NCBI GenBank assembly: GCA_003105035.1 | Contig: PQAL01000011.1 | Coordinates: forward strand, 1 to 64,000 | Length of the DNA stretch: 64,000 nucleotides | Origin: Anaerolineales bacterium | GTDB taxonomy: Bacteria > Chloroflexota > Anaerolineae > Anaerolineales > UBA4823 | Reading direction: 5' to 3' | Shown here: in pieces, positions 62,210 through 63,796 of the stretch | Numbering within the stretch: position 1 is the first letter of the stretch | Layout of the letters: the number at the start of each line of letters is the position of its first letter | Notes under the pieces: model-generated | Told to the model about the DNA's origin: nothing | Seen by the model: the letters and a program-made list of their open reading frames with translations, nothing else | The model's database searches: none | Made by a program: the position numbers and the translations under genes

Positions 62210-63796
62210 TCAAGGTGCCATGCCGATCGTAACAGGTTCGGAGCGGACCAGGTCAGCGTAGACTACCAGGCGTTTCAGATAGGTACGGCTTTCGTCATCC
62301 CATTCCACGCATGTGATCAGTGAGATTTGCGCATTATCCGTGGGCAAAACAACCGACAGATCCCCATCATCGGTCACTTTGCTCTCCCGTACCTGGTAGG
62401 TATAGATATTATTCTCTGTGTAAAGCAGAACCAGCTCACCCCCTGGCAGCTCGTCCAGATGGCGGAAAGGACCGTCCCCCATCCCTGCGACAGTCACATG
62501 GCCGGCAAAGCCTGTATTGCTCCCCAATCCAGGCCAGGAGGTATTGCCCATCCAGGCGACTTCCTGCTTCAAGCCTGAGATCAACCAGGTCACCCCGTCA
62601 AACGGCACGTACTTAACCACTGTATCCAGCATCAGTGCTGGGATAACGATACGGGTCACAGAACTTGTATCCGGACCGACCTCACCCGGCTGAGGGGTCA
62701 CTGTGATGACCGGGGTTGGAATGGGATAATCGGGTAAGGTTTCCAGCTGATCATACGTATCCGGAGTTGAAAATGCTGAGGCGGGTTTATGAACCAGGGT
62801 TGTCGCAGAAGGTTCCTGCACAGCGAGGTTGCCATTCGTCGGAGTAGATTGGTAGACTACAACCTGCTCTTCTGTAGTGAAGATACCGAAGCTGATCGCT
62901 CCGAGGATAAAACCCAAAACAATTAAAGAAGCGCTTCCAATAATCAATCCAAGCTTATATTTCGACTCGCGTAGCTTGGTCCAAATTACTACTGTGAGTA
63001 ATAGGATCGCGCCGAGGATAATCAGGATGAAACCTGGGATCATCCCAGAATTTTGTAGTTTACTTTCACGCCAGTTCAATGGTAGTTCACCTGTTCCGGG
63101 TAGAGTCTGGTAAATCACCTGATAGCTGACACTGGCGGTTTTCGAGAAGACCTCATTGTAAGTTAGAGCTACGATATTGGTGATAGTTTCGGTGCGGGTG
63201 AGAGTCGAGTTAACCCTGACGGTTGCCACGATAGTGACGAGCCCACCTGGTCTTATGTCTCCGATTGAGACAATGAATGAATGAGTCTGTTTGTTTACCG
63301 AACCCTGGGTCGTTGTGACGGTCAGGACATCCAGGTAAGTAGGATATGAATTCACAACGATGTTATTCTGGGTAGGACCTGTTCCTGTATTTCCAACCTT
63401 AATCGTGAAAACAAAATTTTCTCCAATTCTCGCTGAAGTGGGAGAAACTGTCACAGCCAAGGCTGGTACTGGGGTTAATGTGCCGGTAAAGGTAGGTGAG
63501 GGAGTCAGGGTATTGGTTGGTGAGGGCCCTGCAGTATTGGTTTTTGTGGCAGTCGGCTGCGTTCCGGTGAGCGTTGCCGATGGACTGGGTGTAATTGTAT
63601 CGGCGGGTCCTATTTTTACATTATTTAAAACAATAGGTAGATATGGGTCGTAGGGTTTCGGATCTATTACCTTGGCAGATGACGCCAGTTTGGGGATAAG
63701 CAAGGACCCACTCAACAACCCGAGGACCAGGATGGAAATCAACATCCTGGTGATAGTTTTTGAAGAAATCCGCCACCCCGACCGTAAGTTTTTCAT
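62210..63796 (-). CDS. Surface protein fused to its own sortase: DUF11-like domain, LPGTG module, sortase
   Basis: 528 aa. Order: signal anchor (17-37); Thr/Pro-rich linker (65-112); DUF11-like beta domain (113-226); LPGTG (232-236) followed by a membrane helix (251-273) and a basic patch (274-281), the exact layout of a sortase cell-wall sorting signal; a second membrane helix (282-304); a linker; and a sortase domain (380-518) with His433 in AGHV, Cys496 in LITCVEW and Arg509 in YLKRLVV, the complete catalytic triad. Sortases cut LPXTG between Thr and Gly and join it to an amine. A possible self- or neighbour-processing protein. The sortase class is not decided. Confidence 0.85.
   Translation of the reverse strand: MKNLRSGWRISSKTITRMLISILVLGLLSGSLLIPKLASSAKVIDPKPYDPYLPIVLNNVKIGPADTITPSPSATLTGTQPTATKTNTAGPSPTNTLTPSPTFTGTLTPVPALAVTVSPTSARIGENFVFTIKVGNTGTGPTQNNIVVNSYPTYLDVLTVTTTQGSVNKQTHSFIVSIGDIRPGGLVTIVATVRVNSTLTRTETITNIVALTYNEVFSKTASVSYQVIYQTLPGTGELPLNWRESKLQNSGMIPGFILIILGAILLLTVVIWTKLRESKYKLGLIIGSASLIVLGFILGAISFGIFTTEEQVVVYQSTPTNGNLAVQEPSATTLVHKPASAFSTPDTYDQLETLPDYPIPTPVITVTPQPGEVGPDTSSVTRIVIPALMLDTVVKYVPFDGVTWLISGLKQEVAWMGNTSWPGLGSNTGFAGHVTVAGMGDGPFRHLDELPGGELVLLYTENNIYTYQVRESKVTDDGDLSVVLPTDNAQISLITCVEWDDESRTYLKRLVVYADLVRSEPVTIGMAP

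Follow-up and report, generated by a model that had tools for sequence, protein, structure and literature searches.

A DUF11 domain, an LPxTG sorting motif and a sortase in one predicted membrane protein of Anaerolineales: a candidate self-processing module

The locus studied here raises the question of whether a sortase may act on a sorting signal carried in its own chain. The cell wall sorting signal of Gram-positive surface proteins consists of an LPXTG motif, a helix and a basic tail, and to our knowledge sortases and their substrates are separate proteins. In the window (the whole stretch of 64,000 nucleotides analysed, from an Anaerolineales bacterium), an earlier note made from the letters alone had described one 528-aa frame with several parts, among them such a motif and a sortase domain. 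Pfam matches, hydropathy and motif positions bear out this single frame and place it on the minus strand, where it runs from 63796 to 62210 and from ATG to TGA; frame 1 of the plus strand at 62210-63796 has many stops. The residues that the note had named were all found as given (LPGTGELP at 232-239, KLRESKYK, which occupies 273-280, His433, Cys496 and Arg509). The features are listed below.

62210..63796, minus strand: whole ORF, cargo-LPGTG-TM-loop-TM-sortase, 528 aa plus stop
63695..63763, minus strand: predicted N-terminal signal peptide or signal anchor, residues 12-34 (hydropathy; helix 12-28 in the model)
63464..63601, minus strand: Thr/Pro-rich linker, residues 66-111 (sequence; low pLDDT to about residue 100)
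63158..63460, minus strand: DUF11 (CLIPPER) surface domain, residues 113-213 (Pfam PF01345; strands, pLDDT mostly >90)
63089..63103, minus strand: sorting motif LPGTG, residues 232-236, predicted cut after Thr235 (conservation in 24 rows)
62981..63043, minus strand: transmembrane helix 1 (TM1), residues 252-272 (hydropathy 2.94 over 19 residues; within model helix 240-275)
62957..62980, minus strand: basic loop KLRESKYK, residues 273-280, predicted cytoplasmic (loop charge in proteins of the same layout, layout A)
62891..62950, minus strand: transmembrane helix 2, residues 283-302 (hydropathy 2.37; model helix 281-302)
62660..62890, minus strand: flexible outside linker of 77 residues, 303-379 (pLDDT 34-41 at 311-350; 303-351 poorly conserved)
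62711..62737, minus strand: conserved island LPDYPIPTP in this linker, residues 354-362 (P355 in 24/24 rows, L354 and P362 in 22/24)
62234..62659, minus strand: sortase catalytic domain, residues 380-521 (Pfam PF04203; 8 strands; Z up to 17.9)
62498..62500, minus strand: catalytic His433 (24/24 rows)
62309..62311, minus strand: catalytic Cys496 (24/24 rows)
62270..62272, minus strand: catalytic Arg509 (24/24 rows)

The nearest upstream gene is divergent and starts about 150 bases from the ORF, the gene downstream is convergent, and a short inverted repeat followed by T was seen in the sequence past the stop codon. The flanking genes, named by eye (amidohydrolase, parA/parB, yidC, thioredoxin, rho and DNA polymerase I), look like housekeeping genes, and no linked substrate gene was seen among them. 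A family search gave no match for the 549-aa neighbour of the ORF; it identified a LysM/M23 peptidase gene a few kb outside the window (L121:5988-7142), which fits a peptidoglycan wall.

The cargo part of the protein contains a DUF11 domain (PF01345 at 113-213, E = 1e-10, 42.3 bits against a cut-off of 24.6), behind which LPGTG (232-236), a hydrophobic helix (252-272) and basic residues (273-280) follow in the same order as in the Gram-positive cell wall sorting signal. Whereas that signal is placed at the C-terminus, the one found here is internal, with 292 residues after the motif and a second helix and the enzyme behind it, and PF00746 had no match over the cut-off in the whole genome, the window protein included. 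In 28 of the 31 proteins with layout A (motif-helix-helix-sortase), the residues that join the two helices carry a net positive charge. According to the positive-inside rule net-positive loops are cytoplasmic, so the LPxTG and the sortase domain are predicted to lie on the same outer side of the membrane. Judged from the sequence, the LPGTG-helix-basic part is predicted to be a sorting signal whose basic tail re-crosses the membrane into the enzyme.

The C-terminal domain belongs to the sortase family (peptidase C60, PF04203 at 385-517, E = 2.1e-19, 69.9 bits against a cut-off of 26.6). Cys496 stands in LITC, a TLxTC-like strand, and His, Cys and Arg of the active site are invariant in the 24 aligned rows, as a working enzyme would require. 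Comparison with NCBIfam revealed scores below the cut-offs of all the classes listed (class C 18.3 bits against 160, class D 38.7 against 165, class E 37.6 against 160, class F 33.8 against 166 and class GN 31.1 against 158.25), so that no class was given to this sortase; class A and B families were absent among the matches listed. The AlphaFold2 model (24 rows, mean pLDDT 74, pTM 0.56) has eight strands in the domain, from 380-385 to 505-521, and its best structural match is 7cfj_A (Z 17.9, rmsd 2.1, 137 residues aligned, VIA-align); the eight-stranded sortase fold, whose lack in a structure prediction was to refute the earlier note, is thus present in the prediction. Foldseek and VIA-align matched the model to class A, C, D, E and F sortases. 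With classes A, D, E and F the domain shares the common fold and catalytic residues, with high Z to SrtA, SrtE and SrtF structures; these classes are free enzymes that are not known to carry a motif of their own.

Conservation of the motif was analyzed in 22 own-family relatives (L006-L027) picked by homology alone, 21 of which have a strict LPxTG, while L026 has LACTG. T235 and G236 are each present in 24/24 rows, the P in 23/24 and the L in 22/24. LPxTG has a mean majority fraction of 0.93, compared with 0.40 before it, 0.29 in the spacer after it, 0.42 in TM1 and 0.66 in the sortase domain; the motif is thus more conserved than its flanking helix, a comparison by which the note's reading was to be judged. 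Tens of extra residues separate motif and helix in L021, L023 and L025, and the motif is kept in all three. The insert of L023 and L025, SPLGRG(V/E)RGEG between LPGTG and TM1, resembles a translated short genomic repeat. Alignment A1 was made without L017 and L027 (masked letters) and without L035 and L036 (near-copies of the G028 and G025 loci), alignment A3 without L066 (a copy of L034) and L086, and alignment A2 comprises 16 of these proteins.

A motif this short might be a chance or relic LPGTG that has no function in a linker, and in the own genome the LPxTG-coding DNA pattern occurs at 333 sites against 286 for the reversed pattern, which is no clear excess. The retention of the motif in nearly all homologues amid a divergent linker argues against such an origin, and so does a shuffling test, in which 28 of the 31 layout A proteins (some of them picked by motif, and L082 standing outside the count) had a strict LPxTG in a 100-aa stretch against 0.25 expected when each stretch was shuffled. 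We regard a functionless motif as very improbable.

The position of the motif relative to the active site was considered in the model. Of 50 listed matches to solved structures, 12 (Bacillus anthracis SrtA and 11 sortases of class C) have an alignment that starts at 228-232, in the LPGTG segment, and continues across the hairpin; for the remaining rows of classes A, D, E and F the start is at residue 353 or later. Exceptions within class C are 3re9 and 4d7w, which start at 362 and 360, and 4g1j, 2w1k and 3rbj, which start at 121-125, in DUF11. In B. anthracis SrtA and in the class C (pilin) sortases an N-terminal segment overlies the active site, and that of the window protein may do so too; it is with the lid of the class C sortases that its LPGTG is aligned in the model. 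As given in the available part of one report (PMC3166054), the lid is Asp49-Pro50-Tyr51 in Streptococcus agalactiae SrtC1 (3rbk) and Asp58-Pro59-Trp60 in Streptococcus pneumoniae SrtC1 (2w1j), and L232 would fall on the lid Asp and P233 on the lid Pro of both, if the alignment is gap-free after its first aligned residue. With a pLDDT of 72 for the LPGTG block and a pTM of 0.56, the model seems, at modest confidence, to place the motif along the catalytic groove of the same chain, with the hairpin intervening. An IPNTG placed in a class C lid was disordered in the crystal, according to the same part of that report (PMC3166054), which calls for caution with the motif-in-groove reading.

The same alignment, with the lid numbering of that source, could instead mean that LPGTG is an uncut pseudo-substrate that shuts the active site like a class C lid, a role that might also fall to LPDYPIPTP, which is conserved ahead of the sortase domain. 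However, class C lids use DP(W/F/Y) and not LPxTG in the part of PMC3166054 available. Moreover, the invariant positions of the motif are the scissile Thr and Gly, which a lid would not need, and the helix and basic loop behind it match a sorting signal. A latch of this kind appears unlikely to us.

Matches to the window protein were detected in 45 of 61 genomes (E up to 1e-10). The same layout is present in 23 of 37 own-family genomes, a 24th having only a contig-end fragment (L028), and a contig search found it in two further loci, of MAGs labelled Anaerolinea thermophila and Anaerolineales bacterium. Among the matches listed for 249 genomes of the class, those reaching back to the motif come from G000 (the own genome), G221, G185, G165, G299 and G279, and thus the domain order that the earlier note proposed to seek in Anaerolineae occurs across the own family and in further families of the class. 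In 301 genomes of the phylum, a motif-reaching match was obtained only from the own genome at E up to 1e-18, a threshold that weaker or divergent ones would escape.

Three layouts were found among the sortases read. Besides layout A, there are sortases with LPxTGF about 20 residues ahead of the domain and no helix between (layout B) and sortases without a motif ahead of the domain (layout C), and the own genome has all three, in the window protein (A), L002 (B) and the housekeeping sortase L001 (C). The note's 'built-in sortase system' in this lineage stands as to the layout, but it is neither the sole sortase, with two more in the genome, nor confined to this genome. In L002:1492-2739 (G000:C1), DUF7507 repeats are followed by LPSTGFAPG and the sortase with no membrane helix between, and the contig end cuts the ORF. 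Since the motif served to define type B, its count in that type is not independent evidence, and long motif-free sortases exist too, for example in L096. The region that includes L096 and L097 (G045:C134 10500-27500) is a 17-kb cluster of six or more sortase genes; some of these are long, and an LPxTG-like motif is present in part of them. The model of type B was unusable for docking (pLDDT 33 in the motif block); its alignments starting at 120-129 are mostly with class C sortases. A search of 150 class genomes for LPxTGFAP found 17 sites in 12 genomes, against 5 for the reversed control; 9 of the 17 lie directly before a sortase domain and 8 in no sortase ORF.

A tree was built from 153 sortase domains (148 columns), with identical copies, domains of <100 residues and one row with masked letters left out, and many of its forks are unresolved. 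The own-family A sortases form one group (23 rows and the fragment L028, support 97/76), which adjoins four free single-helix sortases (L029-L032), and 33 B rows together with one short C row form another well-supported group. The other A rows are L134 and L138-L140, near B; L033 and L093 (G045); L133; and L082, among C-type sortases. The label A changes seven times on the tree, each change being a gain or a loss, and six of the changes are forced by well-supported branches. In L082 the cargo is different: its 1075-aa frame (L082:278-3502) has a subtilase (S8; PF00082, E = 2.9e-52), followed by LPTTG-helix-basic-helix-sortase.

The genomes were also searched for LPxTG signals outside sortases. 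A family of free-standing two-helix proteins (profile A5, whose matches include L206, L208, L212, L222, L225 and L234-L243) has a single match per genome in 54 of the 61 relatives (weakest E = 2e-5), and most of its open frames measure about 190-260 codons. Copies were read in 31 genomes, and 29 of them end in [LIV]PxTG-helix-basic, usually [LI]PxTGFADEVG or near it; those of G004 and G008 (L247, L255) have LPxGG in place of LPxTG. The search for LPGTG-helix-positive proteins elsewhere in the genome, which the earlier note had recommended, gave one such protein, the own copy of this family at G000:C43 13151-13777 (L244:352-978), which ends in LPGTGIADELG-helix-VRKLRTAL. The proposition that the own genome has no free substrate was rejected on this finding.

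Two other profiles were used. That of the fused signals had matches in 29 of 37 genomes, and in the own genome the window match alone covers the motif start; ten other matches were read, and one (G013) is a free-standing sorting signal. It belongs to a protein that is cytochrome-like by eye (L199, G013:C60 165400-167000) and ends in LPPTGEVP-helix-RRDNKP. Another free-standing signal, IPTTG-helix-RFRK, ends a 4014-aa open frame in L227 (G045:C459 142-249), in a genome with 15 sortase matches. TIGR01167 proved unspecific, being over its cut-off in 9 of 14 control genomes, and its hits included the conserved free-standing family.

LPxTG seems to be a real sorting motif in this lineage, and the free-standing protein is likely a client of the L001-type housekeeping sortase. 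Given such use of the motif, the possibility that another sortase cuts the window protein in trans competes seriously with self-processing. Under this explanation, the LPGTG-helix-basic part would be an ordinary signal for an L001-type sortase and the fused domain would be a passenger or would serve other proteins. It is consistent with the presence of L001 in the genome, with the like signal of the free-standing family in most relatives and in the own genome, with the similarity of type B motifs (LPxTGFA) to that signal, and with G016 and G017, which have no sortase match and no free-standing protein either; the free-standing protein is also missing in G002, G005, G009, G040 and G046, which have sortases. 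On the other hand, in G015, G005 and G026 (completeness 84% in one contig, 56% and 77%) the fused sortase was the only one found, an observation that counts for self-processing; since the free-standing LPxTG protein is present in G015 and G026 too, the fused sortase of these two may act on clients beyond its own chain. A further difference lies just behind the motif, which is followed by ELP, FGP, QGE, GME and others in type A, but by FAD in 15 of 21 typed free-standing copies, though F also follows in 8 of 31 type A proteins (for this tally the second LPxTG of L008 was used, and the free-standing copies of the G004/G008 re-check are among those left out). Furthermore, G004 and G008 pair housekeeping sortases with the LPxGG form of the free protein, so the pairing is loose, and trans cutting leaves unexplained why the motif lies beside a sortase on several branches. 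We consider it a possible but rather doubtful account of the fusion.

The explanation that we favour, by a slight balance of probability, is that the protein is a natural cargo-sorting signal-sortase module whose sortase would act, on the outer side of the membrane, on the LPxTG of its own chain. This reading is preferred because the predicted topology has motif and catalytic domain facing the same side. Support may also be seen in the conserved LPxTG amid divergent flanks, the invariant catalytic residues, the layout on several branches, the subtilase cargo, the sister type B, the alignment with the class C lid and the self-cutting of engineered fusions. Besides the modest confidence of the model and the low pLDDT of the motif in type B, two points count against it: the separate housekeeping sortase of this genome and of most relatives could cut in trans, and immediate self-cutting would give the fusion no evident need. 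The interpretation in the earlier note, self-processing or an enzyme tied to its substrate, is supported in part: LPxTG conservation and the predicted fold agree with it, and the two further sortases of the genome and its free-standing LPGTG protein make trans cutting possible.

If the protein processes itself, the chain would be exported, with DUF11 cargo, LPGTG and sortase domain all outside, as sequence and model suggest, and the two-helix hairpin between LPGTG and the enzyme would be inserted in the membrane. Cys496, of the same chain or a neighbouring copy, would attack the Thr235-Gly236 bond, a thioester with Thr235 would form, and the DUF11 cargo would be handed to an envelope amine, possibly of a peptidoglycan precursor. 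The remnant would be a two-helix membrane sortase beginning Gly236-Glu237, which might process other LPxTG proteins, for example the free-standing one.

The order of the parts is familiar from engineered proteins. Sortase-tag expressed protein ligation is reportedly an engineered system with cargo, LPxTG, linker and sortase in one chain. In the available part of a report on autocyclases (PMC9985607), engineered target-LPGTG-linker-SrtA fusions, whose linkers span 7-19 residues, undergo unimolecular self-cleavage, and they have the same one-chain order as the window protein, cargo, LPxTG, linker and sortase, with the motif N-terminal to the enzyme. The autocyclases are man-made and have short linkers, whereas the window protein is natural, has a two-helix hairpin and a 77-residue linker, and its self-cutting is a prediction.

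Among natural proteins, DUF11 occurs in surface proteins with sorting domains, as described in the available part of PMC12617251, and the window protein likewise has the DUF11 stalk domain of the fibrillar (CLIPPER) surface proteins. However, the motif of the window protein lies inside the chain, whose C-terminal part is the sortase, while that survey, so far as the same part describes it, took sortase motifs from the last 50 residues only, so it would miss a protein of this kind. A surface fibre with 49 DUF11 domains is described from Litorilinea (Caldilineae) (PMC13319060), and the word sortase is absent from the part of that source available; for a sortase-like Chloroflexus protein, a 2006 report states, in the part available, that evidence of sortase action is lacking (PMC1586193). 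No description of a natural cargo-LPxTG-sortase chain was found in the available open-licence literature, a weak absence with subscription papers mostly outside it.

Somewhat short of an even chance, in our estimate, is the broader proposal that Anaerolineae have a natural self-anchoring class of proteins, in which one chain would combine cargo, signal and sortase, with self-acylation, transfer to the envelope, exchangeable cargo (DUF11 stalk, subtilase), an origin on several sortase branches and a helix-free second form (LPxTGFAP). A conserved single-chain form would be the natural version of the engineered self-cleaving sortase fusions. It would offer a ready test for covalent anchoring of surface proteins in Chloroflexota, and new LPGTG enzymes for protein ligation would follow.
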